A stretch of DNA of 64,000 nt from a virus. This document shows, one piece after another, positions 26,075 through 63,443 of this stretch. The notes beneath the pieces are model-generated. The model made no database searches. It saw only the letters and a list, made by a program, of their open reading frames with translations, and had not been told where the DNA came from. The translations under genes were made by a program, and so were the position numbers. Each line of letters starts with the position of its first letter. Positions within the stretch are counted from its first letter, which is position 1. Location of the stretch: the IMG/VR virus record IMGVR_UViG_3300029319_007985, positions 1 through 64,000 of that record; one strand, 5' to 3'.

Positions 26075-26080
26075 TAAAAC

Positions 26081-30200: not shown

Positions 30201-30801
30201 AAAATTAATTGAAAGGTCTGATTTCAAAGATGGATTTTATAATAAACAACCTTTGCCGCAAAAGTATTTTAAATTTCCTCTCTGTAATATTAAAGATGAT
30301 CTTTATCCAAAAGAAAAAATAGAGTTGGATAATAATAAACACAAGCACAGCGGACCATCGTTTGATCAACAGAATGAATTAGGCCTGGACATACACAAAA
30401 GTTATGACCTGTCAGTCATTACAAAAGAGAGATACAAAACTCTATACGATTGGATGCATTCTTGGCATCTTAAAAATCCTATAGGACAGATCCATAATCA
30501 GCAACCAGGTCAAGCACACACATTTCATATGGATGTAATCAATAGTTATAACAATTATATTGCCGATCCCAAAGATAAAAAAACAAAAGTCAAACGTGTG
30601 TTTGTTTTCCTTAACGATTGGACAGCAGGCCAAGTGATAATGGCTGGCACAAAAATTATCACAGGCTGGAAAAAAGGTGACGTATTTTGGTTCGATTGGT
30701 ACCATGTGCCACATGGCACCGCCAATTTTAGCAGAACCAATAGAATGATGTTACAAATTACAGGAGAAACAACACCAGCCTTCGAAAAATTAATACTGTG
30801 A
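30184..30801 (+). CDS. 2OG-Fe(II) oxygenase-like protein, copy B
   Basis: 205 aa, AAGGAGG upstream inside the end of copy A (17-nt overlap). HTFHMDVINSY (HxD) and HVPHGTANFSR match copy A closely, and both share the LxxKYFKFP/KFYKFP and GQxHNQQPGQ/LHNQKPGQ segments. Tandem duplication followed by divergence is the simplest origin. It directly precedes a second TctA/TctC pair, which may be in the same operon. Confidence 0.65.
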   Translation: MQKTFEKLIERSDFKDGFYNKQPLPQKYFKFPLCNIKDDLYPKEKIELDNNKHKHSGPSFDQQNELGLDIHKSYDLSVITKERYKTLYDWMHSWHLKNPIGQIHNQQPGQAHTFHMDVINSYNNYIADPKDKKTKVKRVFVFLNDWTAGQVIMAGTKIITGWKKGDVFWFDWYHVPHGTANFSRTNRMMLQITGETTPAFEKLIL

Positions 30802-30803
30802 TT

Positions 30804-36665: not shown

Positions 36666-36668
36666 AAC

Positions 36669-37487
36669 ATGAATAGTAAAGGCTTGATGTTGCGTTGGTT
36701 CGGTGGATCAGGAGGTGACACCATATGCACACTAATAGACATGGCCGAAAAGGATCTGTACACTAACTTCACTTGCAAATATAACAGCAGGGCCAATGGA
36801 AAAACAAACACACATCAGTTCAAAGATCCTGAATATCCAACACTTTATAGATTTGGTATAAGTTGGAATGCAGGAATTGAATTGAAAAAGGCAGAAAAAG
36901 ATCTCAGTAAGTTAAAGAATTCAAATAAAAAGTTTTTAATAAAGTCTATGAATTTTACAAAATCATTAGATAATGTTGTTTCAGACTATATGGAGATTGT
37001 TAGCATAGGTTATGATTATTCTTTTTTACCATTTTTGGTGCAGACTAATTTAACCAAAACAAAGACAATAAAATACTATTTTACCAAGAACAACTTATCC
37101 AAATATAAAAAAGACCTAGTTCTGCTTGATATTACCAAAAAATTAAACCAAGACCAAAAAACCAAACTAGTAATTTGGAATGTTATCAAGTCAGCAATAG
37201 ATTATATGAACGATTTTAATTTGGATAAGAGTAGTATTCAAATCAGCGATATGTTCTATAACCAACAAAGTATTAAAGATTTTTTCGCAGATAGAAATAT
37301 TGAAATAGACTTTAATAACAAATTGTATAAAAACTGGTTAAAACTAAACCAGAAATATATTCCTAGTGATATTTTCAATAAATGCCTAAAAACTAGATCC
37401 TACAATTATCAAAATAGCGATATGAATTTGTTTGAAAGATATGTGCTTTTAGCAATTTCTGGAAAAAAGTTCAAGTTTCTCTCATAA
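36669..37487 (+). CDS. Unknown protein, possibly sulfotransferase-like
   Basis: 272 aa (MNSKGLMLRWFGGSGGDTI). The N-terminal glycine-rich loop after a hydrophobic strand resembles a P-loop of sulfotransferase-like phage proteins, but the rest is divergent, rich in K and N. Starts 3 nt after sufB. Assignment is weak. Confidence 0.45.
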   Translation: MNSKGLMLRWFGGSGGDTICTLIDMAEKDLYTNFTCKYNSRANGKTNTHQFKDPEYPTLYRFGISWNAGIELKKAEKDLSKLKNSNKKFLIKSMNFTKSLDNVVSDYMEIVSIGYDYSFLPFLVQTNLTKTKTIKYYFTKNNLSKYKKDLVLLDITKKLNQDQKTKLVIWNVIKSAIDYMNDFNLDKSSIQISDMFYNQQSIKDFFADRNIEIDFNNKLYKNWLKLNQKYIPSDIFNKCLKTRSYNYQNSDMNLFERYVLLAISGKKFKFLS

Positions 37488-37528
37488 AAAGCCAGTAAAA
37501 TCAACACTTTTTAACCAGATCAACTTGG

Positions 37529-37556
37529 TTGACGTATTTGGAAAATATGCTATAAT
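37529..37556 (+). promoter_or_regulatory. Sigma70-type promoter, leaderless spacing
   Basis: TTGACG, 16-bp spacer, TATAAT, then 6 nt to ATG 37563. Confidence 0.7.
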
Positions 37557-37562
37557 TTACAC

Positions 37563-37727
37563 ATGATTAGATTGATAATATTGATTGCGATATTTTTTGC
37601 AGTTTATCCGATGATAGGTGAAGGCTATGATCAATTTTTGTCTGATTTTAATTTAGATGGAATTGGTAATATCTTTTCAAATCTTATTGCTTGGATGAGT
37701 GAAACTGTAGATAGGTTGCAATCTTAA
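37563..37727 (+). CDS. Small secreted or membrane peptide (54 aa)
   Basis: MIRLIILIAIFFAVYPMIG is a hydrophobic signal or anchor, followed by a short amphipathic part (FLSDFNLDGIGNIFSNLI). No Shine-Dalgarno; the start codon sits at the predicted +1. No family recognised. Confidence 0.5.
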   Translation: MIRLIILIAIFFAVYPMIGEGYDQFLSDFNLDGIGNIFSNLIAWMSETVDRLQS

Positions 37728-37744
37728 CTATAAGGAAAATGAGT

Positions 37745-38290
37745 ATGAAAAAACTAGCATTGGTTTTATTTGCAGGTTTGTTGTTGGCGCAATGTTCAAC
37801 CTACAAAATTAAGCCGGACATGACAAAGGATGGAGTTGTTAACAAGACTCCTAAATGGTATGTCAAATACGATCACGAAACAATGTTTAAGTATCAAGAG
37901 GCGGCAACTGCTGTATCTCCTGACTTAGAACTTGCTGTGAAGAAAAGTATTTTATTAGCAAAGGCTAAACTTGTTGATAGAATAAATGGTCTAATGAACA
38001 ATCAGACTACTATCAAGAAGGATGAAGTTGGTACTAATGAAACACTTACGGTACAGTCAGGTTCGCAGGACATTATCGTAAACGTGATTGAAGATACTTT
38101 AGCCAGAGGATATGAGGTAACAAAACAGGTTGTTTTTATGACAAACAACAAATCTTATAGATCTTATGTGATGGTTGAACTTTCTAAGAAAGAAGTAAAA
38201 GCCATTATCGAAGAAGTTAATAAGAAAAAAGTTGCATTCATTGATACTAGCAAACTTGAAAAAAGTGCTAAAAGCATCTTAAACAAGTAG
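37745..38290 (+). CDS. Lipoprotein
   Basis: 181 aa from ATG 37745 (AAGGA 8 nt upstream; ATG 37739 is too close). MKKLALVLFAGLLLAQC is a lipoprotein signal with lipobox LLAQC. The mature part resembles LPP20-like/envelope lipoproteins: ATAVSPDLELAVKKSILLAKAKLVDRI followed by VTKQVVFMTNNKSYRSYVMVEL. First of three consecutive exported proteins. Confidence 0.65.
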   Translation: MKKLALVLFAGLLLAQCSTYKIKPDMTKDGVVNKTPKWYVKYDHETMFKYQEAATAVSPDLELAVKKSILLAKAKLVDRINGLMNNQTTIKKDEVGTNETLTVQSGSQDIIVNVIEDTLARGYEVTKQVVFMTNNKSYRSYVMVELSKKEVKAIIEEVNKKKVAFIDTSKLEKSAKSILNK

Positions 38291-38296
38291 GGCAAT

Positions 38297-38647
38297 ATGA
38301 ACTACATTTACAAACTTATTGCCCTAGTTGTAGCACTTCTAATCTTTGGATTAGTTGGTGTGGCAAAGGCCGGAGGTCCATGGTCGGATCAATACTGTGA
38401 CATTAGCCATGAGACTGTGATCACAAAAAATGAAAAGGGAGAGATCATCGATAAAGTAACCAAAGAAAAAGTCAAGTGCGAAGACGGTGTAATGGACTTC
38501 CTACACGGAATGAAAATTGCGGAAAGTTGTAAGTTCTTTACTTGGCAGATGCCGATGGGAGAAAAGTTAGTAGAGCAGAGAGGTATTGCTTGTAAGAGAT
38601 TGGATGGAGGATATGAAATTGTTCAAGGTTATCACAGTATTAATTAG
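38297..38647 (+). CDS. Exported protein
   Basis: 116 aa with a signal peptide (LIALVVALLIFGLVGVAKA) and four cysteines in the mature part (QYCDISH, KCEDG, SCKFF, ACKRL) that could form disulfides in the periplasm. Co-transcribed with the lipoprotein before it; its end overlaps the next gene by 35 nt. Function unknown. Confidence 0.6.
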   Translation: MNYIYKLIALVVALLIFGLVGVAKAGGPWSDQYCDISHETVITKNEKGEIIDKVTKEKVKCEDGVMDFLHGMKIAESCKFFTWQMPMGEKLVEQRGIACKRLDGGYEIVQGYHSIN

Positions 38648-39074
38648 TCTGGTGCTTCTAACTAATTGCACGTCATCCAATGTGCAGAAAGTATCAGTTG
38701 TGCCTAAAGAAACCGATGGCGCATTGGCACAGATGCCATATCCGGTTATGCTTGGAGAAGGTGAGATATGGAGTGCGCCAGGAATGTTATGGAACGGTGC
38801 ACAATACATTAGATTTAATCTTAACAAGGCAGAGAAGCAACAACATCAACAAGCGGTATATCATAGTTTAAACAACGCACAAATTGGTGAAATAACTGCT
38901 TGGTATAGTAAAAAACGTCTAGCAAATGGCAAGATCAGGGTTATAAGTCACTTTCCTACGTCAGATGGCTACTGCCGTGTTTATCAGAGTTATATACAGT
39001 TAAATGGTGCACAAAGGCACATGACGAACAAGGCGTGTAAAAGATTAACACTACCTTGGGTATTCCTAAAATAA
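38613..39074 (+). CDS. Lipoprotein, surface-antigen-like
   Basis: 153 aa from ATG 38613 (ATGGAGGAT upstream). MKLFKVITVLISLVLLTNC is a lipoprotein signal. The mature part ends YCRVYQSYIQLNGAQRHMTNKACK, resembling the C-terminal half of the 17-kDa surface antigen/RT0821 family of alphaproteobacteria. An outer-membrane lipoprotein of this kind might block superinfection or alter the envelope. Confidence 0.6.
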   Translation: MKLFKVITVLISLVLLTNCTSSNVQKVSVVPKETDGALAQMPYPVMLGEGEIWSAPGMLWNGAQYIRFNLNKAEKQQHQQAVYHSLNNAQIGEITAWYSKKRLANGKIRVISHFPTSDGYCRVYQSYIQLNGAQRHMTNKACKRLTLPWVFLK

Positions 39075-39084
39075 ATAGTTCTAG

Positions 39085-39092
39085 TATAAATA
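39085..39092 (+). promoter_or_regulatory. Perfect T4 late promoter
   Basis: TATAAATA, exact T4 late consensus, 18 nt before ATG 39111 of a structural gene that also has CAAGGAA. A further TAAATA at 39072-39077 overlaps the end of the previous gene. Confidence 0.75.
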
Positions 39093-39110
39093 ATAGCAAG
39101 GAATTTACAA

Positions 39111-39758
39111 ATGGCAACAGTCGAACCAAAATCTTTATATAACGTTAATATTAACGAACCACAAATAACGTATTTCACAGTGGCAATAAACACTTCAGGC
39201 TTTTTAGACACTGAGACAGTAAATGGTGGAAGAGTGTCTCCGTGCATAGCGAATGACTTTGCAACTAAGCCTACAACACTAGCACAATCATTATTGGTAT
39301 CAAGAGGGAACTTAAGATGGAAAATGATGATGGAGGCTCTAGCAGTAAGATCCAATTTTAGAGTGTGCAATATTGTTACAACTTATGCCGCTGACGAAGG
39401 TGACTCACCGATTACTAACTTGGCATTTGGACTTGTTTTTGATACGCCAAACTTTGTTCCAACAACAGGTACAACAATCGACGGATCAACAACTACTACA
39501 ACAAGAGCATTATATCTTCAAGACAAAATTGCTGAAGCATTGAACACTACAAGAACTGAGAACATGAGTATTTTTGATCCAACTGGTACTGGCAATCCAC
39601 AGCAATTAAGAACAATTGAAGTAACAGCCGGTCCGGTGTTGACAGCATCAATTGGTGAAATAGTAGAAGCAATCACAGTTACAGAAGTTACTGGTTTTGC
39701 ACCAAACACTAGCAACCAATTGCCAACTGACAACTCATTGACATACTCAGCAGAGTAA
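39111..39758 (+). CDS. Putative virion structural protein
   Basis: 215 aa (MATVEPKSLYNVNINEPQITYF). Threonine-, asparagine- and alanine-rich beta protein, with LVSRGNLRWKMMMEALAVRS in the middle. Similar proteins are annotated as structural in T4-like marine phages. The exact late promoter upstream supports a virion role and high expression. Confidence 0.65.
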   Translation: MATVEPKSLYNVNINEPQITYFTVAINTSGFLDTETVNGGRVSPCIANDFATKPTTLAQSLLVSRGNLRWKMMMEALAVRSNFRVCNIVTTYAADEGDSPITNLAFGLVFDTPNFVPTTGTTIDGSTTTTTRALYLQDKIAEALNTTRTENMSIFDPTGTGNPQQLRTIEVTAGPVLTASIGEIVEAITVTEVTGFAPNTSNQLPTDNSLTYSAE

Positions 39759-39807
39759 TCACTTTACCAAATAATTCAGTAGCAGTAAAACGAAGTTTCT
39801 GTTATAG

Positions 39808-39813
39808 TAAATA
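39808..39813 (+). promoter_or_regulatory. T4-like late promoter element
   Basis: TAAATA 7 nt before ATG 39821, overlapping a possible -10 (TTATAGT). Confidence 0.4.
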
Positions 39814-39820
39814 ATCTATA

Positions 39821-41590
39821 ATGTTTATAGCAATTCTTACACTTTTATCTGCATTATCCATCTCGGGTGTTGCAATTTTCTATTCTGTGATAGGACTCGC
39901 CACAATCTTCCCTGGAGCATTTTGGCCTGTGGTTATAATGGGGTCAGTTCTTGAGGTTGGAAAATTAATTACAGCCAGTTGGCTATATCGGCAATGGAAG
40001 TTTACACCATTCCTTCTCAAAACTTATCTTACTATTGCGGTCATAATACTGTCAATAATAACTTCAATGGGTATTTTTGGATTCTTATCTAAGGCACACC
40101 TTGAACAAAACTTAGCCAGTGATACCTTGGTGCAAAGGGTTGATATTATTAACGACAAGATAGAAAGCCAGACTATCTATATTGAAAGGCAAAAGGCAGT
40201 CATCACACGTTCTGAAAAAGCAATTGATCGAACAGGAAAAGATTTCACACAGGACATTGCGGTGCAGGAAAACATTATCAATTCTGCCTATCTAAGACTA
40301 CAAGTGCTTGACGCAGACGTAAAGGCATACACAGATCAAGGAAAAGGTTTTTGGAAGGGTGACAACATTGCCAAAGGTGTGGAACTAAGGAAACAACAAA
40401 AACCTGAACGTGATCAACTAAATGCAGAAATAAAAGAGGCCAAGGCAAAGATAGAGAAATATAGGAATGAAGGCAGGATCGCAGGAGATAATAACAAAAC
40501 TACAATTAAAGAAGCAGAAGAAAATATCATAGTTGCCCAAAATAAGATTGATGATCTTATTATCGAAAGACAGCCGTTAGAAAAAAAATTAATTAATTTA
40601 GAGGCAGAAGTAGGTCCAGTGAAATACATAGCCGCTCTTGCGGTTGACTGGGGGTTTGCCGAAGAAGTAAATTTATCCAAAGCAGTAAGATGGGTGATAT
40701 TGATTATAATTGTTGTTTTTGATCCACTTGCAGTTTTACTTTTAATTGCCGCGAACCAAAGTCTGGTTAGAAGATTTCCTGTTAAACCACCTAAGCCTCA
40801 AGAGATTATAGACTTGGAAAAACCAGATGATGAAAGTATTATTCTAAAATGGAGAGAAATGGCGGAGCAGGCTAGTAAAAAAAACGCCCAAGAAAAACAA
40901 ATCAAAATTAAACAGCAAGTAGATGAATGGCAACAAAAACTTAAAAAATTTAATGAAAAGGCTCCAAAACCAGAAGACAAGCCTGTAGAAGTTATAGTTG
41001 AGCAACCAAAGAAAGAACCGACTAAGGAACAAAAAATAGAGGCCTTTGATGAAAGATTGAGAGCAGAAGAGGCAGAACTTGAAAGAGTCGCGGCAGAAAC
41101 AAAAGCAGATATTGAGAGGATAGAAGAAACTAGCAAACCAGTTGAAGACTATAATTTTGAAGATGAAATAAAATATGATGTAGACACAGAAGTTAAAAAA
41201 ACAGACGAAGAGCCAGGCATAGCCAAGCAGATAGAAAAGGCAATGGAAGGTGTACAAGCAAGAATAAAGCCTGACTTTACAGAAGTGATAGAGCCTGAAA
41301 GCCAAATTAAAAAACCAAAAGTGGGTGCCCTAGGCACAGTGTTGGTTGATAAAGGCAAGGTGATTAAACAACAACCTGCTTACACACAAAACTCTGAGCA
41401 AAATGAATCTGGTAACTGGAGTAAGATTAACGAAAAGCGTCTTATTGACGAAGAGACATATAGACAAAAAATTGAATCAAGAATAAATGATTTAATCATC
41501 AAAGTAAAAACTGGAGAAATGAAATTGGAAGACCTTGCCGAGGAAGATCAAAAATTAGTCAAACAAGCGATGGATAATGGAAACGACTAG
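39821..41590 (+). CDS. Large membrane protein with coiled coil
   Basis: 589 aa. Three membrane segments in the first 90 residues, a periplasmic or cytoplasmic coiled coil (about 105-265, for example QTIYIERQKAVITRSEKAID), a fourth membrane helix (WVILIIIVVFDPLAVLLLIAA, about 288-310), then a 270-residue K/E/P-rich soluble tail. Proteins with this layout occur in T4-like marine phages without assigned role. A membrane-remodelling or scaffold function is possible but unsupported. Confidence 0.6.
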   Translation: MFIAILTLLSALSISGVAIFYSVIGLATIFPGAFWPVVIMGSVLEVGKLITASWLYRQWKFTPFLLKTYLTIAVIILSIITSMGIFGFLSKAHLEQNLASDTLVQRVDIINDKIESQTIYIERQKAVITRSEKAIDRTGKDFTQDIAVQENIINSAYLRLQVLDADVKAYTDQGKGFWKGDNIAKGVELRKQQKPERDQLNAEIKEAKAKIEKYRNEGRIAGDNNKTTIKEAEENIIVAQNKIDDLIIERQPLEKKLINLEAEVGPVKYIAALAVDWGFAEEVNLSKAVRWVILIIIVVFDPLAVLLLIAANQSLVRRFPVKPPKPQEIIDLEKPDDESIILKWREMAEQASKKNAQEKQIKIKQQVDEWQQKLKKFNEKAPKPEDKPVEVIVEQPKKEPTKEQKIEAFDERLRAEEAELERVAAETKADIERIEETSKPVEDYNFEDEIKYDVDTEVKKTDEEPGIAKQIEKAMEGVQARIKPDFTEVIEPESQIKKPKVGALGTVLVDKGKVIKQQPAYTQNSEQNESGNWSKINEKRLIDEETYRQKIESRINDLIIKVKTGEMKLEDLAEEDQKLVKQAMDNGND

Positions 41591-41891
41591 ACTAGGCAAA
41601 CTGACTTTGGTTACACCACCCAGTATCTTAGAAGATAACAAAAACAGTTTTTGTATAATAAACTTCAAAACAGAAGATCAAGACAAGTTTGCCAATTATC
41701 TAAACAGGCATCTAGCAAATGATGATGTTGTTGTTTACGTTGTAGACAGTGCCAAGGACACTGAATTAACTTTGCCATGGTTGACAAACATACTAGAAAA
41801 GTCTAAAACTGTTATAGTTAAATCACAAAATAATTTTAAAGTTTTGAAAAACGAAACAATAATTGACTTGGAGGCGATATTCAATGAGTGA
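41577..41891 (+). CDS. Unknown small protein before clpX
   Basis: 104 aa ([20 protein letters not shown]), alpha/beta with [13 protein letters not shown] and a [15 protein letters not shown] strand. Overlaps its neighbours on both sides (14 and 8 nt), so it is co-translated with clpX. No family recognised; it could be a small ClpX partner but nothing in the sequence shows this. Confidence 0.5.
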
Positions 41892-43146
41892 TACAGATCA
41901 AAATCTTAATTGTTCTTTCTGTGGTAAGGGCAGGAAAGATGTCTCAAAAATGATCGTTGGTGCTGATAAAGTTACAATTTGTAATGAGTGTATAAAATTA
42001 TGCACAGAGATCATTGTGGAGGATAACCAAAAGGTTAGCAGTGAGCAAATCAAAACTGGTGAGAAACAAAATTTAAATCCTGTGGACATAAAAGAATATC
42101 TTGATCAATATGTTGTTGGGCAAGACTCTGCAAAAACTGTTCTTAGTGTTGCTGTGTCTAATCACTATAAAAGAATTTTAAATCCACCAAAGGACTTTGA
42201 ATTAGAAAAATCAAACGTTCTTATACTTGGTGCAAGTGGTTCCGGAAAAACACTTATGGCACGAACCATTGCCAAATATTTGGATGTGCCTTTTGCTATG
42301 GCAGATGCTACAAGTTTGACCGAGGCTGGATATGTTGGTGATGACGTTGAAAATGTAATCACTAAACTTTATCAAAACGCCAAGGGAGACAAATACATGA
42401 CTGAAAGAGGCATTGTGTTCATAGACGAAATTGATAAAATTTGTAAGAAATCAGAAAGCACCAGTATAACCAGAGACGTATCCGGAGAAGGAGTTCAACA
42501 AGGTTTACTTAAAATAGTCGAGGGCACAATTTGTAGGGTTCCACCACACGGAGGAAGGAAACACCCTGAACATCAACACGTTGAGATCGACACCTCAAAC
42601 ATTTTGTTTGTCGTTGGTGGTGCTTTTACAGACCTGGAACGACAAATTAAATCTAGAAAAAGCACAGGAATGGGTTTTAACTCTGAATTGATATCAAGCG
42701 AACAAAAAAACTACTTGGCAGAATCTCAACCAGAGGACCTAATTAAATTTGGACTGATACCGGAGTTTGTTGGCAGATTTAGTATGCTTACTCACGTGGA
42801 TCCATTGACAGAACTTCAATTAGTAAAAGTTTTAAATGAACCAAAAAATAGTTTACTGAAACAATATTCCTACTTGTTTAGTCTTGATCATATTAATTTA
42901 GAGATAGACAAAAAGGCCCAGTTGGCTGTTGCTAAAAAGGCTAAAAAATTAGGCACAAATGCAAGAGGATTAAGAAACATCTTGGATACTCTTCTCCTGC
43001 CTTACCAGTTTGACTCTGCTGAGATGCATAAAAAAGGAGTCACAAAAGTATCAATCACAGAAGAGTGTGTTGACAAAAACCAAGATCCTGTGTTACATTT
43101 TAAAACACCGGTAAACGAAATGAAAAAACAAAAGGCGAAAAATTAA
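41884..43146 (+). CDS. clpX: ClpX, ATP-dependent unfoldase
   Basis: 420 aa from ATG 41884 with TTGGAGG upstream. The N-terminal C4 zinc domain ([11 protein letters not shown] ... CNECIKLC), Walker A (GASGSGKT), Walker B (IVFIDEID), the [18 protein letters not shown] pore-2 region and the lid with [20 protein letters not shown] are all present, so it should be active. Typical ClpX carries an IGF loop to dock ClpP; here the matching part reads [13 protein letters not shown], which is the separate conserved segment, and I could not locate an IGF. ClpP is not in the window. Confidence 0.95.
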
Positions 43147-43376
43147 TGGCATACTACGTGGATGTTACAAAATCTGGCGGAGATGCTGTTCGAGCCTATA
43201 GAAAAATCAAAAGAAAGATCAAACAAGACAGGTTCATTGAGGAACTACGTGATAGACAATATTACCGTAAACCTTCCGAATTAAAACGTGAGAAACAAAA
43301 GAGAGCACGTATCACAATAAAGAGAAACCAAGCCAAAAGTAATTGGGCAGATCCAAGTAAAGTAAGACAAAGATAA
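43146..43376 (+). CDS. rpsU: Ribosomal protein bS21
   Basis: 76 aa. Family pattern VDVTKSGGDAVRAYRKIKRKI, then FIEELRDRQYYRKPSELKREKQ and a very basic helix. bS21 sits by the anti-Shine-Dalgarno on the 30S subunit and influences start-site choice. Phage-encoded bS21 is known from many aquatic phages and is thought to redirect ribosomes to phage mRNAs. Its ATG overlaps the clpX stop. Confidence 0.9.
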   Translation: MAYYVDVTKSGGDAVRAYRKIKRKIKQDRFIEELRDRQYYRKPSELKREKQKRARITIKRNQAKSNWADPSKVRQR

Positions 43377-43386
43377 TTGGTAAAAT

Positions 43387-43505
43387 AGGTCGTAATCCTA
43401 AAATTAATGACTATATGTATAGTGTAGGTGATAAATATCTACATACGATGCTAATAGATAGGTCGTACAAAAACTTAACTCGCTTAACAATAGGAGGCAA
43501 AGCAC
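43387..43505 (+). other. hsp20 leader region
   Basis: Non-coding 119 nt. TAGGTCGTA occurs twice (near 43387 and 43460), flanking a TAAATA late-type element at 43432-43437; AGGAGGC lies just before the hsp20 start. The repeat pair could be a regulatory site. Confidence 0.35.
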
Positions 43506-43961
43506 ATGACAAACAATAAAGCACTATCTATCTTTAATCAATTAAGACCCGTAACTGTTGGGTTTGATAACGTATTCGATCATTTCGAAAGAATGTTTGA
43601 AGACGATTTTTTCAGATTGCCAACAACTTCAAACTTCCCACCTTACAACATTGTAAAGACTGGGACAAACACTTATGACGTTGAACTTGCAGTAGCAGGT
43701 TTCGGTAAAGACGACATAGAAGTGCAGTATGAAGACAACATGTTGACTGTGAAGTCCAAAAAGTCTGATAAGTCAGAAGAAAAGGACGAGGACGGAAACG
43801 TTATCCACAGAGGAATTTCCAAAAGATTTTTCTCAAAATCATTCACGATAGCGGATGATGTGGAGATCAAGGGCGCCGAATTGAAAGATGGTTTATTGAA
43901 GGTTTCTATGGAAAGAATTGTTCCAGAAGCCAAAAAAGCAAGAACTATCGACATCAAATAA
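43506..43961 (+). CDS. Small heat-shock protein Hsp20
   Basis: 151 aa, alpha-crystallin domain (about 45-140): PPYNIVKTGTNTYDVELAVAGF, then DDIEVQYEDNMLTVKSKK, HRGISKRFFSKSFTIADDV, and A-x-x-x-x-GLLKVSME. The C-terminal I-x-I-type anchor is weak (ARTIDIK). ATP-independent holdase. T4-like cyanophages carry the same gene. Strong AGGAGG. Confidence 0.93.
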   Translation: MTNNKALSIFNQLRPVTVGFDNVFDHFERMFEDDFFRLPTTSNFPPYNIVKTGTNTYDVELAVAGFGKDDIEVQYEDNMLTVKSKKSDKSEEKDEDGNVIHRGISKRFFSKSFTIADDVEIKGAELKDGLLKVSMERIVPEAKKARTIDIK

Positions 43962-43973
43962 GGCAACAATAGA

Positions 43974-43997
43974 TAGGGCGGTGGTCACATCGCCCTA
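43974..43997 (+). terminator. Terminator-like hairpin after hsp20
   Basis: TAGGGCG pairs with CGCCCTA, extended by GTG/CAT with a short GTCA-region loop. No T run follows, so termination is uncertain. Confidence 0.5.
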
Positions 43998-44007
43998 CTT
44001 AATTCAA

Positions 44008-44035
44008 TAGACATATGTTTTAAATATGTTATAAT
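44008..44035 (+). promoter_or_regulatory. Sigma70-type promoter of clpS
   Basis: TAGACA, 16-bp spacer, TATAAT, then TTGGAG just before ATG 44042. A TAAATA at 44021-44026 falls in the spacer. Confidence 0.65.
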
Positions 44036-44041
44036 TGGAGT

Positions 44042-44353
44042 ATGGCAATGGCAGATTTAGGTGTTAAAACACTAACAAAAGACAAACTAGAATTAAAAGA
44101 ACCAGACAAATACGATGTGGTATTCGTTAATGATGATGTGACCACTGTAGAATTTGTTATTAAAGTTCTAAAAAATATATTTCATAAAACAACAGAACAA
44201 GCAGTTGCATTAACAACACACATTCACGAAAAAGGCAAAGGTGTTGTTGGCACATACCTGTACGAAATTGCAGAACAAAAAGGTATAGAAACAACTGTCC
44301 TTGCCAGAGACGAAGGATATCCATTACAGGTAAAAGTTCAAAGGCACGGTTAA
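44042..44353 (+). CDS. clpS: ClpS, adaptor for N-degron proteolysis
   Basis: 103 aa. KYDVVFVNDDVTTVEFVIKVLKNIF is the ClpS core with the acidic residues that read the N-terminal amino group, followed by THIHEKGKGVVGTYLYEIAEQK. ClpS delivers N-degron substrates to ClpAP; alphaproteobacteria often have two ClpS proteins. Here it lies near clpX and hsp20 but without clpA or clpP. Confidence 0.92.
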   Translation: MAMADLGVKTLTKDKLELKEPDKYDVVFVNDDVTTVEFVIKVLKNIFHKTTEQAVALTTHIHEKGKGVVGTYLYEIAEQKGIETTVLARDEGYPLQVKVQRHG

Positions 44354-44970: not shown

Positions 44971-45175
44971 TGCTGGGTGTTCATATTGTGAACAGGCAAA
45001 AAATCTATTGAAATCAAAAAATATAGAAGTCGAGGAGAGAAATATTGCTCTTGGAACTTGGACTGTTCAGCAGTTGCAAGAAGCAGTGCCAGGTGCTAGA
45101 ACAGTGCCACAAATATTTGTTGACGACAAATATGTGGGTGGTTTCAGCGAATTAAAAGAAATGTTGGATGGCTAA
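44948..45175 (+). CDS. grx: Glutaredoxin
   Basis: 75 aa. Active site CSYC in SNAGCSYCEQAKNLL, the cis-proline in TVPQIF and the GG pair in YVGGFSELKEM. A likely electron donor for the phage-encoded ribonucleotide reductase. Overlaps its neighbours on both sides. Confidence 0.9.
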   Translation: MKAIVWSNAGCSYCEQAKNLLKSKNIEVEERNIALGTWTVQQLQEAVPGARTVPQIFVDDKYVGGFSELKEMLDG

Positions 45176-46298
45176 TAATAAATGTATTTTACCGTGGATA
45201 GCAGTAGACCGTAATCCTAAGACCCAAAAAGGAAAAATCACATTTTCTCCTTGTTGCTTTTTTGACACCTCTAAGAAATATAGGTCTGTTGCAGAATATT
45301 GGAACAGTGATGAAATCAAAGAACTGCGCCAATATTTTATCGAAGATAAAAGACATCCCGGTTGTAATCAGTGTTGGAATGCTGAGGACAAAGGAATAAA
45401 AAGTCTAAGGCAGTCAGTAAACGAGAGCAGGTTAGAAGAGTTTATAACAAGAACAGATACTACCACATGTGAAGATATGCCGGCACAGGTCAAATACACT
45501 GTTGGGAATCAGTGTAATCTGGCGTGTAGAATGTGTGTGCCAAATTCAAGTAGCAAAGTTAAAAAAGTATGGGACACACTCCAAATAGAAGATAAACTTG
45601 CTATCGATGATTTTGACTGGTATTCCTACGTAATTGAAAATTTTGACTCAATAAAGTATTTGGATATCACTGGCGGTGAACCTTTTTATCATAAAAATAC
45701 AAAGCAGATGTTAAATTTTCTTATTAGCAAAAATACTGCTAAAAACATAACACTATACATCCAAACAAATTTAACAATAATAAATGATGAGATAATAAAA
45801 TTACTAAATCAATTTAAGAAAGTTGTACTGAGAATCAGCATCGATGGTATAGGCAAAAGGCAGGAGTACATACGTCCCGGACTCAATTGGAAGTTGTTTG
45901 AAAAAAATATTAAGTTGTTAAAGAAAGAAAAATTTGACATGATGATTTCTCCGAGTCTAAGTGTGCTCAATATATGTACCTTTGAAGATTTAGAAAACTG
46001 GTGTAAAGAGAACAAGATAGGAATCTCACAACCGAGCATTGTTGAGTTTCCTGTGGAGATGGCGCCACACAACTTGCCTACTGCCTTACACAGTCTGGTA
46101 CCAAAAAAATTCAAAAAGTTTTTGGATAATCCAATAAATGCTGATAGTCTTAATTTTATAAGGAAGTTAGACAATTTTTGGAACACCGATATAAAAGAAA
46201 TCATGCCAGAATGGAAACTTGTCTATGATAGGTTGCATTGGTCCAACGTTGATCAACTTAAACAGATAGATAAAGAAACACAGAAGTATGTTGGATAA
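45168..46298 (+). CDS. Radical SAM protein, twitch-domain type
   Basis: 376 aa. The [4Fe-4S] motif is CNLACRMC (about 113-120), with GGEP (LDITGGEPFYH) and a later RISIDG strand. The first 80 residues hold four more cysteines (NKCILPW, FSPCCFF, GCNQCWNAE), unusual for being N-terminal, likely an auxiliary cluster. This type is frequent in T4-like marine phages. It overlaps the PLP-enzyme gene that follows, so the two may act in one pathway. Confidence 0.75.
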   Translation: MANNKCILPWIAVDRNPKTQKGKITFSPCCFFDTSKKYRSVAEYWNSDEIKELRQYFIEDKRHPGCNQCWNAEDKGIKSLRQSVNESRLEEFITRTDTTTCEDMPAQVKYTVGNQCNLACRMCVPNSSSKVKKVWDTLQIEDKLAIDDFDWYSYVIENFDSIKYLDITGGEPFYHKNTKQMLNFLISKNTAKNITLYIQTNLTIINDEIIKLLNQFKKVVLRISIDGIGKRQEYIRPGLNWKLFEKNIKLLKKEKFDMMISPSLSVLNICTFEDLENWCKENKIGISQPSIVEFPVEMAPHNLPTALHSLVPKKFKKFLDNPINADSLNFIRKLDNFWNTDIKEIMPEWKLVYDRLHWSNVDQLKQIDKETQKYVG

Positions 46299-47287: not shown

Positions 47288-47316
47288 TTGACACTATCCA
47301 ACTTATGTCATATAAT
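47288..47316 (+). promoter_or_regulatory. Sigma70-type promoter of the B12 riboswitch operon
   Basis: TTGACA, 17-bp spacer, TATAAT. Predicted +1 about 47323, just before the riboswitch. Confidence 0.85.
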
Positions 47317-47324
47317 ACATAGTA

Positions 47325-47430
47325 AGACTGTGCTAAAAGCATAGTGGGAAAGTGACGTGAAATTCGTCCACATTACTTGATACGGTCATAGTCCGAATGC
47401 CACCTAGCACAGGACAGAGCAAGGAGACTC
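47325..47430 (+). ncRNA. Cobalamin riboswitch, class II (Cbl-IIa, env8-like)
   Basis: The closing stem CTGTGCTA (47328-47335) pairs perfectly with TAGCACAG (47405-47412). Inside are GTGGGAAAGTGACGTG, ATTCGTCCA, TTACTTGATACGGT and AGTCCGAATGCCACC, nearly identical to the env8 hydroxocobalamin riboswitch crystallised from a marine metagenome sequence, as I recall it. Downstream GAG-CAAGGAGA-CTC (47417-47430) is the expression-platform hairpin whose loop holds the Shine-Dalgarno and can kiss the core loop when B12 is bound. The next gene is a BtuB-like receptor, as expected. Confidence 0.93.
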
Positions 47431-47432
47431 GA

Positions 47433-49262
47433 ATGATGAGATTAGTTCTTATGTTAATCTTGGTGTGGACATCTATCGCACACGCCAAAACGGAAAGTTG
47501 CAGTTGGGACAACGACGTTCCATGTGTCGTAATATCCAAACCAAATACAAATTTAATAAATGAAAAGGTGTCACCCAGCACGGTGATCACACAAGAACAA
47601 ATCAAAAAACATAATCTTTTGGACCTTAAAAGTGTTTTCAAGTTCCTCAACAACACAATTGCCGTGCAGTCAGGACCTACTGGACAACAGGCATCAGTTT
47701 TCATGCGAGGTACAAACAGCAACCACACACTAGTGTTATTGAACGGAATACCTATCAACGATCAAAGCACCACCAATGGTGCCTTTGATTTTGGACAAGA
47801 CTTCCTTTTCAACGTGCAAAGAATAGAAGTATACAAAGGTGCCGCTGGCGCACACTTTGGCGCTGACGCTATAGGAGGTGCAATAAATTTAATAACTGAC
47901 ATCGACTATCAAAATAACTTTTCAATAACAGGACATAACAATAGTAAGACCATAGAAGGAAACTATGCCTCTGAATACAATGGTTGGCAGTTTAACGTCA
48001 AAGGTGGATTGCATCAGTCTGAAACACAGTCGGCTCTAAAGGGAGGAACTGATCTTGACGGGACAAAAAATAAATCATGGACCGCAAGTGTAGTTAAATG
48101 GTTCAACGAAAAATTAAAATTTAGATCGAACCTCTTTACAAGAAATACTTTTAGTGATCTGGATGGCCATTCATTGGCCCTGCAAAATGGATATGACAGC
48201 GACAACAATCTTTATGCCTTCCAAACTGGGTTTGACTACTACACTAAAGACAGTCTCAGTTATGTCACACTGCACACCCATGGATATGACAGAGAGTACA
48301 ATAGTCCAGGCAACGAGTTCGACAACTATGAATCTGACGCCTACGTATTAAGAGCAGAACATAAAAAATACAAAGATGGGCCTTTCAAGTATGGACTAGG
48401 ATTTGAATACAAATACGATGTGGCCACGTTCACCAACAACGGATCATACAACAGCACATTGGATGGGGACTATGATAACATAGGACTATTTGTTAATTTT
48501 GGATATGAGTTCGACAACTGGGCAACCACGTTGAATCTAAGAACAGATGACAACAACCTCATAGGTAACAACGACAGTTACAAATTTGGGATATTAAGAC
48601 AGGACATATTGCCAAATCTCGATGTAAGTTTCAGTCGTGCAGAAGGGTTTAAAAATCCTAGTCTGTATGAAATGTTTGGTGCTGACAACTACGGATACAA
48701 AGGCAACATGGATTTGACAGCAGAAAACAGTATCCTCAACGAAGTCACGTTCGACTATGGTATTGACAAAAGCAAATACTCTTTGACATTGTTTAGAAAT
48801 CAAATAACAAACATGATCGAATACAGTTATCCAACATACAAAAACAATAGCACTGACTCTCTGGACCAAAGCGGAATCGAATTGTCCTACTCCTACAACG
48901 GAGATAAAAATAATTTCACCATTTGGGCAAACAGTCTCAGTAGTGAGAAAGGCAACAATTCAGCGCAGTTGAGGAGACCTGAGCATAGCATTGGTTTCAA
49001 TTATGAAAGGGTAGTCACCAACACATGGAGTTACTATGCAAACTACAACTTTACAGGCGAACACCATGACATACACAACAGTAATTGGAGCACAATTACC
49101 ATGCCCGACACCCACTTGCTTGATATAGGTATAACAAAAAATTACTATGGAATCGATTTAGGTTTAAGTATTAGCAATGTTTTCGACCAAGACTATGAAC
49201 AACCACATGGATTTAGTCAGGATGGAAGAAAAATTAATTTTATACTTAAACGTAGGTTTTGA
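47433..49262 (+). CDS. btuB: TonB-dependent vitamin B12 receptor, BtuB-like
   Basis: 609 aa from ATG 47433, preceded by AAGGAGA in the riboswitch hairpin; an upstream in-frame ATG lies inside the riboswitch and is ruled out. Signal peptide LVLMLILVWTSIAHA. Plug domain: STVITQEQIKKHNLLDL through SVFMRGTNSNHTLVLLNGIPIND, then VQRIEVYKGAAGAHFGADAIGGAINLIT, typical of TonB receptors. The C-terminal beta-barrel ends in the aromatic FILKRRF for BAM insertion. The cobalamin riboswitch makes corrinoid uptake the likely role. It depends on host TonB-ExbBD and BtuCDF. Confidence 0.88.
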   Translation: MMRLVLMLILVWTSIAHAKTESCSWDNDVPCVVISKPNTNLINEKVSPSTVITQEQIKKHNLLDLKSVFKFLNNTIAVQSGPTGQQASVFMRGTNSNHTLVLLNGIPINDQSTTNGAFDFGQDFLFNVQRIEVYKGAAGAHFGADAIGGAINLITDIDYQNNFSITGHNNSKTIEGNYASEYNGWQFNVKGGLHQSETQSALKGGTDLDGTKNKSWTASVVKWFNEKLKFRSNLFTRNTFSDLDGHSLALQNGYDSDNNLYAFQTGFDYYTKDSLSYVTLHTHGYDREYNSPGNEFDNYESDAYVLRAEHKKYKDGPFKYGLGFEYKYDVATFTNNGSYNSTLDGDYDNIGLFVNFGYEFDNWATTLNLRTDDNNLIGNNDSYKFGILRQDILPNLDVSFSRAEGFKNPSLYEMFGADNYGYKGNMDLTAENSILNEVTFDYGIDKSKYSLTLFRNQITNMIEYSYPTYKNNSTDSLDQSGIELSYSYNGDKNNFTIWANSLSSEKGNNSAQLRRPEHSIGFNYERVVTNTWSYYANYNFTGEHHDIHNSNWSTITMPDTHLLDIGITKNYYGIDLGLSISNVFDQDYEQPHGFSQDGRKINFILKRRF

Positions 49263-49888
49263 TGCAAGTTGATTACATAGACAAAATGGGCAGTGATCTC
49301 ACCGTGGTGAACGCCGCCAGAGTCAGTTACGCAAAAACAAAAGAACTAATGGACGCCAAGGATGAGAAACTTATCAAGTTTCTGGCAGAACACAACCATT
49401 GGTCACCTTTTGGACATGCATCTATACAGTTTCGTATCAAGGCACCAATTTTTGTTGCAAGACAACTTGTTAAACACCAAGTGGGATTGGTTTGGAACGA
49501 AGTTTCAAGAAGATACGTTGATTATCAACCTGAACTGTATGAACCAAAGCAATGGAGAGGTAGGCCCAAAAATAGTAAACAAGGATCGGACGGTGAAATT
49601 GAACTTGATAAAAACGAACAGTTTAGATTGAAAAACACCATGGAGCAGTGTTTGATCATATACAATTCACTTATAGAAATGAACGTGGCACCAGAGCAGG
49701 CAAGGATGGTTCTCCCTCAAAGTATGATGACCGAATGGTATTGGTCCGGCACTCTGTATGCATTTGCTAGAGTTTGTCAACTTAGATGTGCCAAAGATAC
49801 ACAGGAAGAAACAAGAGAGATTGCTGACCAAATCAGTGAACTCTGCGCCGAACACTTTCCTATTAGTTGGAAATATTTAAAAAAATGA
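49259..49888 (+). CDS. thyX: Flavin-dependent thymidylate synthase ThyX
   Basis: 209 aa. The signature is LVKHQVGLVWNEVSRRYVDY, where the usual RHRxxxxxxxS of ThyX is KHQ-x7-S; related marine proteins use RHQ, so activity is likely. WSPFGHASIQFRI is the early dUMP/FAD segment, and the C-terminal part QARMVLPQSMMTEWYWSGTL has the conserved glutamine/arginine face. Makes dTMP from dUMP using FAD and methylenetetrahydrofolate. Overlaps the btuB stop by 4 nt. Confidence 0.92.
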   Translation: MMQVDYIDKMGSDLTVVNAARVSYAKTKELMDAKDEKLIKFLAEHNHWSPFGHASIQFRIKAPIFVARQLVKHQVGLVWNEVSRRYVDYQPELYEPKQWRGRPKNSKQGSDGEIELDKNEQFRLKNTMEQCLIIYNSLIEMNVAPEQARMVLPQSMMTEWYWSGTLYAFARVCQLRCAKDTQEETREIADQISELCAEHFPISWKYLKK

Positions 49889-51438
49889 AAAAGAGAATAG
49901 CCTTACTGATCGCTCCTCGTATTCAAGACGATTTTGGTTACACGCCTGCAGGTGCATCATTGGTCAAGGCCGCCATAGTTAAAGCCGGTCATGAATGTAA
50001 AATTTTTGATTTTAATGCAGAACTAGAAAAAAGTTTTATGAACAAAAGGGAAGAACTGGTCCCAATAGACAACTGGTTCCTTAATCACAATTTTTATTCT
50101 GAAAAAGTTTATACTAAAATTATTGGCTTGGCACAAAAATGGATAGATGAAGTTTTTGAATATGACCCAACAGACGTTGGCATATCAGTCTTTTCATACA
50201 ATTCACAAAGGGCAACTATTCTGTTGTCGACTATGATCAAATCGAGAAAACCAGATATACCATTGTTTATGGGAGGCGCTGGCCTAAACACTGATAATAA
50301 TTTTGGGCCATATTGTTTGGAGCAAGGCATAATGGACTGTTGGATTCGGGGTGAAGGAGAACTATCTGTGCCTGCTTACCTTAATGGGGATATGTCCCAT
50401 CCTGGCCTTAATGGCATCCCACCAAAACAGATAGATAACATTGATGACCTTGAATTTCCTGACTACAGTGACTATGAACTAGCATCTTATACAAATAAAA
50501 AAGGACTTGTCGCTTTACCTATAACAGGATCCAGAGGGTGTGTAAGGGCCTGTACTTTTTGTGATATTGCCAGCATGTGGCCGAAATATAAATTTAGGTC
50601 GGGACATAGTATTGCTGAGGAGATAAAAACGCAAGTATCAAGATATGGAGCAAAAGCATTTAGATTTACAGATAGTTTGATAAACGGATCAATGAAAGCA
50701 TTCCGAGACATGACATATGAATTATCGGAGTATCGTATGAAACTTAAACCTGAGGATAGGTTCATTTGGGATAGTCATTTTATCGTTAGATCTAAAAAAC
50801 AGATGCCTCCAGAAGATTTTGAAAAAATGGCGCAGAGTGGTGCAGGCACTATGCTTATTGGAGTCGAGTCCGGATCACCAAAAGTGCGTGACCACATGAA
50901 AAAAGGATACAGTGATGAGGACCTACACTATAGTCTCAGCCAACTTTTCAAGAACAAGATCAAAGTTAGATTCTTAATGATCATTGGATATCCAGTAGAG
51001 ACCGAAGAAGATTTCAAATTGACTCTTGATTTTTTTGACCGATACGCACACTATGGAAAAAAAGGTTTAGTGGAAGAAATAAATTTAGGCCTTACTTTAA
51101 ATTTACTGCCAAACACTCCGTTGTATGACAATGCCGAGACACATGGCCTAGAGACAACTAAGAACCATATCAATGACTGGATATGTTTACAAAATCCTAC
51201 CCTTGATTTCAAAGAAAGATTAAAAAGAAGAATAATTGCCCAACATCATGTAGAAAAGTTAGGATACAAAGTTTTTGAGTCAAAAAATTATTTGCGGGCA
51301 CTTGCGATAGCATGGAATGAAGTAAGCAATATAAAAAACAAAAATATAACAAAGTTTGATGCCAGTAAGGTCAAGTTTGACAGAGAAAAAGGCATACTGG
51401 AAGAACAAAAGGATTTTGATCCATTGAGGACTTACTAA
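49885..51438 (+). CDS. B12-binding-domain radical SAM enzyme
   Basis: 517 aa from ATG 49885 (ATGA overlap with thyX). Residues 1-150 form a cobalamin-binding Rossmann domain (KRIALLIAPRIQDDFGYTPAGA, DVGISVFSYNSQR, FMGGAGLNTD), followed by the radical SAM motif CVRACTFC in TGSRGCVRACTFCDIASMW, FTDSLING, and IGVESGSPKVRDHM. This family (often class B) uses B12 and SAM for methylation or ring chemistry on unknown substrates. Being in the same operon as the B12 receptor suggests that cobalamin import serves this enzyme. Confidence 0.88.
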   Translation: MKKRIALLIAPRIQDDFGYTPAGASLVKAAIVKAGHECKIFDFNAELEKSFMNKREELVPIDNWFLNHNFYSEKVYTKIIGLAQKWIDEVFEYDPTDVGISVFSYNSQRATILLSTMIKSRKPDIPLFMGGAGLNTDNNFGPYCLEQGIMDCWIRGEGELSVPAYLNGDMSHPGLNGIPPKQIDNIDDLEFPDYSDYELASYTNKKGLVALPITGSRGCVRACTFCDIASMWPKYKFRSGHSIAEEIKTQVSRYGAKAFRFTDSLINGSMKAFRDMTYELSEYRMKLKPEDRFIWDSHFIVRSKKQMPPEDFEKMAQSGAGTMLIGVESGSPKVRDHMKKGYSDEDLHYSLSQLFKNKIKVRFLMIIGYPVETEEDFKLTLDFFDRYAHYGKKGLVEEINLGLTLNLLPNTPLYDNAETHGLETTKNHINDWICLQNPTLDFKERLKRRIIAQHHVEKLGYKVFESKNYLRALAIAWNEVSNIKNKNITKFDASKVKFDREKGILEEQKDFDPLRTY

Positions 51439-52022
51439 TGCAAATAAAGATTATAATAGAACCTAAGTTCAGTAAAAAGTGGCCTAACCTTAAGATAAAA
51501 GTAAACAGCAAAACAATGTTCGATGATGTTTGTATGCCAAACAAAGAAAAGTATTTTGTCTATGACACTTCGCTGGAGAATATGAATGAGTTAAATCATT
51601 TGGAAATTATTCATCATGGCAAAAGCGGAGATGATACTGTTGTTGACAAAGAAGGAAACGTTATTGATGACAGAGCAATAATTTTGAAATCTATCGAGTT
51701 CGACAACTATGCTGTTCCTGAAGTGCTGTTGTATGAAAATAAATTTTTTCCGGATTGGCCTGACCAGCCTGAATACATTAAAAACAATTTGTATTTTGGT
51801 TTCAATGGCACTTATAGACTAGAGTTTATAAACGATGCAAAGAAGATGTATTTTAACAACCTCTTGGAGAAAGAGAGTCTGGCAAACATTAACAACAAAA
51901 AAATAGTGCAACTTCCATCCGGTAAGGAAATAGAGAGTTTTGAGTTCAATGGTGAACTTGTTGACAGTGAAAAGAAAGACAACGTGACAATCGATGACCT
52001 TTATAAGGCGGTGACAAAATGA
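51438..52022 (+). CDS. Beta-rich protein, possible carbohydrate-binding type, copy A
   Basis: 194 aa. Alternating strands and hydrophobics (QIKIIIEPKFSKKWPNLKIKV, IILKSIEFDNYAVPEVLLYENKFFPDWP, FNGTYRLEFIND). It shares this layout with the next gene (KINFHSKYNKTKPKIRV, VFIKSIEIDGINLQHYIYDGTFFPEYD, LKGKWELKI), so the two are paralogues. Such proteins occur in T4-like marine phages near oxygenases. Binding of a sugar or peptide is plausible but unproven. Confidence 0.6.
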   Translation: MQIKIIIEPKFSKKWPNLKIKVNSKTMFDDVCMPNKEKYFVYDTSLENMNELNHLEIIHHGKSGDDTVVDKEGNVIDDRAIILKSIEFDNYAVPEVLLYENKFFPDWPDQPEYIKNNLYFGFNGTYRLEFINDAKKMYFNNLLEKESLANINNKKIVQLPSGKEIESFEFNGELVDSEKKDNVTIDDLYKAVTK

Positions 52023-61802: not shown

Positions 61803-63443
61803 ATGAAAAATTGGGCGTACTTTTTAATAGCAATTCTCTTTCTGACTGTGTCACCTGTGTCTGCTGAAGACGAAAACAAAGGTTGCAAGTGGGAAACTGT
61901 GGAAGAAACAGAACAGTTTATCAGGGAACAGTGTATTGGTGATGGGCAGTTGCAGGTTCGAATGAAGTCAAAACCTGTGCCAGGTGTCACTGTGATCGAA
62001 GCACCAAACACCAAAAAAAGTAATCCTTTAAAAGAGATCAAGGAAGTAGTAAAAAGCAAAGAAGCAAAAAAACAAGAAAAGAAAATTGAAAAGATTGAAC
62101 AGGCAGTAGAAGACACTGCTAAAAAAGTAGAAGAAGTCAAAAAAGAAACAGTAGTAAAAAAACAAGAGCCAAAAGTTGAAAAAGAAAAATCCAAAAAGTC
62201 AAATTGGAAGAGGCCCTACCAACTGCTACCAGAACTAATTTTAAACAATGAAAAAATTCAAGCGGCCGAACTAGATTATGATGCCGCCCTTGAAACACTA
62301 AAGTCTGAATACAGTGCGTACAAACCACAGGTCAGTGTCAGCATTGGACAGAACTGGGAGGACGATAGGACTCCTGCAAAGGGAACTTATCCCAACAACA
62401 CAATCACACATGACAGCAAAAACGGATTGACCAAGTCGATCACCATCACACAGATGTTGTGGGACGCAGGAAGAACTAGCAGTGTTGTTGACAAGGCCAA
62501 GCACACGGCACAACAGGCATACTTCAGGCTTGATCAGGCCAAAGAAGACCTAATGGTTGAAGCACTAAACGCCTGGATCAATTTAGGCAAAGCATACAAC
62601 AACTGGCAGAGCAACATGAAGGTCCAGAAAAATGCAATGACCACACTGAAGATGACCACCGAAAAAGTGAAAAAAGGTGAAGCATCCAAAATGGAACAGT
62701 TGCAGATTGAACAGCAGTTTAGAACATATCAAACTTTGACCATGACTAGCAAATTGGCCTATGACAGTGCGGTAGAAAGATTTAGAACAGTTTGGAAGTT
62801 TACGCCAAAAAATATTGATCAAATGCCAATGCCCGTATCGGATTTATTAGGTATGATTCCAGAGGCAGGCACCAACGTTAAGAACAACACCACAATAAAA
62901 ATTGCCAGCATGGATGTTAAAATTGCTGAACAACAGTTGAGGTTTGACAATGCTGATTTCAAACCAAGAGTTGATGGCAAATTGAGTTACACAGAAAAAG
63001 AGGGTGAACTTGGTGGCGGATTTGATAACGAACAAAAAGAAGAATGGCGGGCAGACATCACAATGACCTGGCAGGTGTTTGGTGGATTCAAAAAAACCCA
63101 CGTGTACAGAGCCGACAAGAGCAGATTAAAGGCCGCTGAAATAAGACTGACAGACACAGTAAACGCAACACAGGAGCAGTTCAATAATAGTTGGAACAAT
63201 TATGTTCTCGTAGAAAAAAATCTTAAAACACTGAAACGTACTGTCGAAATAAATCAAGAGATGTATAATCTCACATTGGCAGACTTCAAAGCAGGAAACA
63301 CACCTATCATGGCAGTGTTTGGCATGAAAACTTCATTGATCATGAGTGAGGTTGCATATCAAAATGCTCAGTTGGATTTGACTATAGCAAGATACCAATT
63401 ACACAAATTGTTAGGCATAGTTAATCCATTGTTCAAACAATAA
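61803..63443 (+). CDS. TolC-like outer-membrane secretion channel with odd N-terminal extension
   Basis: 546 aa with signal peptide (LIAILFLTVSPVSA). Residues about 145-545 are the TolC fold: YQLLPELILNNEKIQAAELDYDAALETLKSEYSAYKPQVSVSIG, MLWDAGRTSSVVDKAKH, then the second repeat with IKIASMDVKIAEQQLRFDNADFKPRVDGKLSY and MTWQVFGGFKKTH. Between signal and channel lies an unusual 120-residue stretch: two cysteines (GCKWETVEE, REQCIGDG) and a K/E coiled coil (KEVVKSKEAKKQEKKIEKIEQ) like that of the RTX protein. Adjacent RTX and ABC genes mark a type I secretion locus. Confidence 0.85.
   Translation: MKNWAYFLIAILFLTVSPVSAEDENKGCKWETVEETEQFIREQCIGDGQLQVRMKSKPVPGVTVIEAPNTKKSNPLKEIKEVVKSKEAKKQEKKIEKIEQAVEDTAKKVEEVKKETVVKKQEPKVEKEKSKKSNWKRPYQLLPELILNNEKIQAAELDYDAALETLKSEYSAYKPQVSVSIGQNWEDDRTPAKGTYPNNTITHDSKNGLTKSITITQMLWDAGRTSSVVDKAKHTAQQAYFRLDQAKEDLMVEALNAWINLGKAYNNWQSNMKVQKNAMTTLKMTTEKVKKGEASKMEQLQIEQQFRTYQTLTMTSKLAYDSAVERFRTVWKFTPKNIDQMPMPVSDLLGMIPEAGTNVKNNTTIKIASMDVKIAEQQLRFDNADFKPRVDGKLSYTEKEGELGGGFDNEQKEEWRADITMTWQVFGGFKKTHVYRADKSRLKAAEIRLTDTVNATQEQFNNSWNNYVLVEKNLKTLKRTVEINQEMYNLTLADFKAGNTPIMAVFGMKTSLIMSEVAYQNAQLDLTIARYQLHKLLGIVNPLFKQ

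Follow-up and report, generated by a model that had tools for sequence, protein, structure and literature searches.

The RNA that most closely resembles the leader described here is env8, a hydroxocobalamin riboswitch (Cbl-IIa; PDB 4FRN/4FRG) of Rfam family RF01689 (AdoCbl-II, or AdoCbl-variant). In env8 the ribosome binding site (RBS) is located in the terminal loop of hairpin P13, a kissing loop is formed upon binding and translation is repressed (PMC10907184). The origin of env8 has been recorded as marine metagenome only (PMC10907184, PMC9600662, PMC2864571), and AdoCbl-variant has been listed simply as 'Marine' (PMC2864571). Among cellular systems, E. coli BtuB is a TonB-dependent receptor governed by its own cobalamin riboswitch, BtuM transports B12 as a solitary S-component-like protein, its gene often adjoining btuB (PMC6072759), and ECF-CbrT, the structure in PDB entry 6FNP, is a B12 transporter (PMC5997447). 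Regulatory RNAs are also known from phages, and these include a glutamine riboswitch in Melnitz and Mosig (PMC9004378) and the manA and wcaG motifs of cyanophages (PMC2864571); pelagimyophages have been searched for riboswitches and none was reported (PMC7029224). The open-access papers searched contain no account of a cobalamin riboswitch in a phage.

The locus analysed here has the aptamer type of env8 together with its P13 loop containing the RBS and its CUUG/CAAG kissing loop, and translational control is expected; it differs from env8, a sequence of metagenome origin, in standing on viral genomes ahead of an identified operon. As in E. coli, a B12 switch stands ahead of, and would govern, a TonB receptor with full-length homology to BtuB. 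In contrast to E. coli BtuB, however, the receptor is phage-encoded, has a leader of another riboswitch class and is expected to be co-transcribed with genes for ThyX and a radical SAM protein. The Melnitz/Mosig and cyanophage elements are likewise regulatory RNAs of marine T4-like phages, but their ligands and genes differ. The preliminary description of the locus had spoken of a new kind of auxiliary metabolism, which is too broad, as phages were already known to carry genes related to B12 and riboswitches for other ligands (PMC9004378, PMC2864571, PMC11360552).

The riboswitch-headed operon

The window, a stretch of 64,000 nucleotides, comprises positions 1 to 64,000 of IMG/VR record IMGVR_UViG_3300029319_007985 (172,389 bases; here G000). 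Among the genes of the record are those of a T4-type clamp loader and DNA polymerase (E=1e-195), the latter being nearest to the polymerases of the jumbo phages Phosso (49% identity) and Atu_ph07 (44.5%). This kinship suggests that 172 kb may be a fragment of a larger genome, and G000 may be incomplete; searches of G000 found no terminase, sheath or DUF6580 gene, and a search with T4 gp23 gave no match on G000 or on any other contig searched and is therefore uninformative. The preliminary description had placed a riboswitch core at 47325-47430, behind a consensus sigma70 promoter and directly upstream of a BtuB-like TonB receptor, followed by ThyX and a cobalamin-binding radical SAM enzyme. 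Each of these elements was recovered, the last in part, and the core corresponds to the aptamer plus the P13 hairpin:

47288..47316, + strand: sigma70 promoter TTGACA-17-TATAAT, 12/12 against the consensus
47330..47410, + strand: AdoCbl-II/Cbl-IIa (env8-like) cobalamin riboswitch aptamer, RF01689
47417..47430, + strand: P13 expression-platform hairpin GAG-CAAGGAGA-CTC, three pairs, with the RBS (AGGAG) in the loop
47433..49262, + strand: BtuB-like TonB-dependent outer-membrane receptor, starting at ATG 47433 or the in-frame ATG 47436
49262..49888, + strand: ThyX, FAD-dependent thymidylate synthase; start overlaps the receptor stop (TGATG)
49885..51438, + strand: radical SAM protein with a predicted N-terminal cobalamin-binding domain; start overlaps the ThyX stop (ATGA)
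51438..52022, + strand: unknown protein, in translational overlap; kept after the radical SAM gene in L033 and L034
52019..52435, + strand: unknown protein, overlapped; conserved in L033 and L034
52422..53141, + strand: possible Asp/Asn beta-hydroxylase-like oxygenase, last of six overlapping ORFs

The promoter was the sole 12/12 match within 45.0-55.5 kb and its 3' end lies 13 bases upstream of the aptamer; transcription is predicted to start just upstream of P1 of the switch. G000 has ten perfect sigma70 promoters on its + strand compared with 0.1 in simulation, and this excess over chance suggests that the phage is reliant on host sigma70. The aptamer, the only copy in the 172,389-base record, was matched over its full length by cmscan (84.3 bits, E=9.5e-20, against a gathering score of 36.5), and the P13 loop sequence CAAG is complementary to CUUG in L5. 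The pseudoknotted fold was missed by single-strand minimum free energy folding (z -0.83), as is expected of a tertiary structure. From its sequence, the leader would be expected to bind cobalamin and change expression.

Both the plug (PF07715) and the barrel (PF00593) of the receptor scored above Pfam cut-offs. A profile of 25 phage homologues had E. coli BtuB as its best PDB match (235.8 bits, compared with 117.8 for the next family), and the receptor is colinear with BtuB through to the C-terminus. It is ∼24% identical to Salmonella BtuB and its score against TIGR01779, the BtuB equivalog, was 173 bits where the cut-off is 599.7, and it is for this reason named BtuB-like rather than BtuB. 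Inspection of the receptor by eye recognised no canonical DTLVV-like TonB box near the mature N-terminus. Movement of B12 by this protein is the function that its homology suggests. ThyX was assigned by TIGR02170 (149.1 bits, NCBIfam cut-off 87.9).

The six ORFs from the receptor to position 53141 overlap at each junction, and a single transcript with translational coupling is therefore expected. The oxygenase match of the last ORF was 16.4 bits, below the cut-off of 22.6; the protein has an HxD...H motif and, with the two small ORFs, it stands behind the radical SAM gene in the window and in L033 and L034. These three ORFs and the radical SAM gene are possibly a peptide- or glycan-modifying set.

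The radical SAM domain of the 49885-51438 product scored above its Pfam cut-off, and the cysteines of the CX3CX2C motif (Cys219/223/226) were invariant in 11 phage homologues. The AlphaFold model (pLDDT 81) gave TsrM with cobalamin as its first Foldseek match (E=3e-18), followed by MgmA and OxsB, and the predicted model has the domain order and fold of TsrM and OxsB, although the phage protein is only ∼15% identical to them. AprD4, which is not known to be cobalamin-dependent, was also a close fold match. The N-terminal B12-binding domain predicted for this protein was matched at 28.6 bits, below the Pfam cut-off of 32.1. Use of B12 by the enzyme is suggested by the modelled fold. Approximately 10 radical SAM-type ORFs with CX3CX2C were found in G000, several of them clustered at its right end, which makes the presence of one beside the receptor less striking. 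Those located are as follows:

2022-2906, 45168-46298 and 49885-51438 of the window, and L005-L007: radical SAM-type ORFs of G000

Recurrence in viral contigs and covariation of the RNA

Viral contigs were scanned for the switch by pattern, with no use made of the receptor, and 22, 13 and 3 contigs were found (38 in total). Most of these switches were scored with Infernal, at 69-93 bits, and a few are known from the pattern alone. The next gene was the receptor or DUF6580 in 36/38, the remaining two contigs stopping right after the switch; where DUF6580 came first the receptor followed wherever the contig was long enough. Searching the viral contigs with one receptor protein sequence gave no match, while an alignment-based scan gave 127 contigs, of which 80 were kept, with sizes up to 328 kb. 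RF01689 was present in 14 of the 47 receptor contigs searched, always directly 5' of the receptor or of DUF6580-receptor, and six of these 14 were absent from the pattern scans. At least 44 IMG/VR contigs besides G000 thus carry an env8-type motif, and terminase and tail sheath genes were found on large receptor-bearing contigs. A recognisable switch was lacking in the other 33 of the 47 contigs with related phage receptors, indicating that the receptor gene does not require B12 control. The proposed link between the phage switch and B12 uptake is strengthened by the receptor or DUF6580-receptor pair that stands behind each switch wherever the contig continues, and by the operons of like kind in related cells described below.

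The comparison was made with the presumed env8 (4FRN) sequence, set down before the contigs were obtained. Two contigs, L016 and L025, were identical to it at 102/102 positions and most other env8-type contigs had one to three differences. The window aptamer matched that of L016 at 73/81 positions, which is the extent of the near identity to env8 that had been claimed for it. Phage genes stand on several contigs with such switches: L016 has tail-fibre genes and one for a T4-type baseplate-wedge/tail-fibre connector (phrog_677, E=4e-45), L012 a gene for a head-tail adaptor and the contig of L015 one for a tail sheath. The earlier suggestion that phages may carry switches of the env8 type is now strongly supported, and env8, a model cobalamin riboswitch of metagenome origin, gains a genomic home in marine viruses.

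Across 11 distinct phage P1 helices, pairs were formed in 65/66 cells; none of 5000 shuffles reached this level (mean 68%), in a statistic that ignores relatedness. P1 was counted from the helix ends, because MAFFT misaligned the inner P1/J columns between two switch subtypes. The L5/L13 states of the phage switches were CUUG/CAAG, CCAGG/CCUGG and CCUG/CCAGG, each of them complementary. A chance match as the source of the switch was ruled out by the RF01689 score and by recurrence in viral contigs.

Isolate phages had no near DNA matches to the locus, and their protein matches were mostly to bacterial-looking sequence deposited as phage. The INPHARED entries AGRM01000004.1 and AFYI01000005.1 contain 16S rRNA and BtuB genes and resemble Salmonella chromosome contigs. 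A second possible structured RNA (GTCTACAC...GTGTAGAC, GGCCGG/CCGGCC) was observed directly 5' of an env8-like switch at L043:970-1100, and had no Rfam match.

Gene neighbourhoods, DUF6580 and cellular relatives

The order found in the window, twSAM-p330-switch-receptor-ThyX-...-PstS, was also found in L073. In L033 and L034 the receptor is followed by a radical SAM gene, 80% identical to that of the window, and three ORFs, with no switch, and L072 and L090 have receptor-ThyX. Contigs of the env8 type have switch-receptor, and in many of them a radical SAM gene with 36-38% identity to that of the window lies convergent to it. A third type has DUF6580-receptor, in most cases preceded by the switch and mostly without a radical SAM neighbour. 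This protein family is seen at:

L100:4483-5004 and relatives: DUF6580 (PF20221), predicted S-component-like membrane protein

The DUF6580 model (pLDDT 88), with the six-helix S-component fold, matched the ECF S-components ThiT, PanT, FolT and BtuM with hydroxocobalamin. ThiT was matched by Foldseek with a probability of 1.00 and a TM of 0.61 and BtuM with a probability of 0.80, the E-values being weak (0.07-1.3), and the sole PDB sequence match was 6FNP (E=0.099). The S-component fold of BtuM and ECF-CbrT (PMC6072759, PMC5997447) is thus also predicted for a protein of sister phages that adjoins the receptor, and an invariant Cys in DUF6580 recalls Cys80 of BtuM. DUF6580 differs in having no significant sequence identity to BtuM or CbrT, and it is absent from G000. 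The modelled fold makes DUF6580 a candidate B12 inner-membrane transporter, and points to it as such in streamlined marine bacteria.

Cellular genomes were scanned from the class of an Oceanicaulis MAG (385 Alphaproteobacteria) and from that of Lamprocystis (369 Gammaproteobacteria), and RF01689 scored above cut-off in four and three of them respectively. Switch-receptor-DUF6580 operons were found in the best two alphaproteobacterial genomes (1.2 Mb, with a G+C of about 27% around the locus) and in all three gammaproteobacterial genomes (∼1 Mb); EcfT was not found with the operons of these five genomes. In both 1.2-Mb genomes a radical SAM gene whose product matches the B12-binding domain (in one case below the Pfam cut-off) lies 9-10 kb from the operon, and it was the only such match found per genome. 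In two ∼1-Mb genomes, RNR-subunit-like genes, judged by eye, are convergent to the operon (L134:3991-5970 and L135:3998-5947).

In the receptor tree, 28 phage receptors, including that of the window, grouped with the two 1.2-Mb cellular ones, and a second clade contained 13 phage receptors. The switch label required at least six changes on this tree, in which branches are long and the rooting is unsure. The cellular operons indicate a host source for the phage module, which is likely to be among streamlined marine bacteria; SAR11 is a guess, from the small genomes and adjacent rRNA-like sequence.

A proposed B12-uptake module and its alternatives

Given the observed parts of the module, their order, viral context and recurrence, and the covariation of the RNA, we consider it probable that phages infecting streamlined bacteria acquire, and retain, a module for B12 uptake under feedback control. 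G000 probably stems from a marine myovirus of the jumbo type with a streamlined proteobacterium as host. In this scheme the binding of the ligand, its transport, the coupling to TonB, the consumer and the host are inferred. The consensus promoter would be read by host RNA polymerase. With little cobalamin present, L5 and L13 would be undocked, the RBS in the P13 loop accessible and the BtuB-like receptor produced; it would insert in the outer membrane and presumably be energised by host TonB. When cobalamin is plentiful, the aptamer would bind it, L5 would dock on the P13 loop and the RBS would be occluded, and, owing to the overlap of the six ORFs, repression may extend in part to ThyX and the radical SAM enzyme. 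Such regulation would operate during infection. In other phages DUF6580, predicted to be an S-component-like protein of the inner membrane, could carry B12 across that membrane. During infection, the corrinoid taken up would supply the B12-type radical SAM enzyme of the phage as well as such B12 enzymes as the host may have, and the gain would be B12 for phage or host enzymes where the water is B12-poor. This suggests that phages monitor a vitamin in short supply and adjust its import accordingly. There is about an even chance that a wider statement holds, namely that oceanic env8 (Cbl-IIa) switches are largely viral and that several lineages of marine phage, jumbo phages among them, possess full sets of parts for scavenging B12 (switch, BtuB-like receptor and S-component-like inner-membrane protein), with which they supply phage-encoded radical SAM enzymes and host enzymes in infection.

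The module may instead import corrinoid or another tetrapyrrole for host enzymes (for example MetH, RNR or another radical SAM enzyme), the adjacent radical SAM protein being unrelated to B12. The B12-binding domain below its Pfam cut-off, the many radical SAM genes of G000 and the DUF6580-receptor phages that mostly lack this neighbour are all in keeping with such a role. We regard it as unlikely, however, as the radical SAM fold matches TsrM/OxsB with cobalamin and this subfamily stands repeatedly beside the receptor, in two orientations.

The presence of the env8-contig receptor gene among tail-fibre genes raises the question of whether the receptor alters the infected cell surface, as a decoy, in superinfection exclusion or as a receptor for progeny, the switch having come with the host gene. 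BtuB is often a phage receptor, according to papers on Salmonella and Klebsiella phages, and the switch is missing from many phage receptor copies. Masking would not need the pairing with DUF6580 or B12-type radical SAM genes, and divergent phages have kept both switch and kissing loop, with covariation, making a surface role rather improbable.

It is very unlikely that the leader is a non-regulating passenger from a host operon, either ligand-blind or irrelevant in a short infection. The homologous operons in cells and the six or more gains and losses on the receptor tree would agree with a passenger, but near-perfect P1 pairing, compensated L5-L13 changes between viral lineages, scores of up to 93 bits, a perfect promoter and the positioning of the RBS in L13 would not. 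An assembly artefact or mis-binned bacterial DNA, the joining that the preliminary description had feared, is scarcely credible: G000 is metagenomic and lacks terminase or capsid matches of its own, but it is a viral record with T4-type polymerase and clamp loader genes and even G+C, and the gene orders shared with L073 (twSAM to PstS) and with L033/L034 (receptor, radical SAM, three ORFs) recur in independent viral contigs, which makes a chimeric assembly unlikely and by which chimera and contamination were ruled out.

Several further genes were observed in the window. A permuted tmRNA of alphaproteobacterial type (26051-26425; tag ANRKALRFADLVAMPTSGSALRLAA) has a perfect sigma70 promoter in front (26046), and the related viral locus L035 has another permuted tmRNA at 975-1330. 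Host-like maintenance genes occupy 35232-44353 (SufB, ClpX, and Hsp20-like and ClpS-like ORFs), a class Ia RNR is encoded at 19842-23410 and an outer-membrane efflux protein at 61803-63443. The TctA gene (30798-32138) adjoins a TctC-like one, and another pair of this kind is located at 4593-7068.
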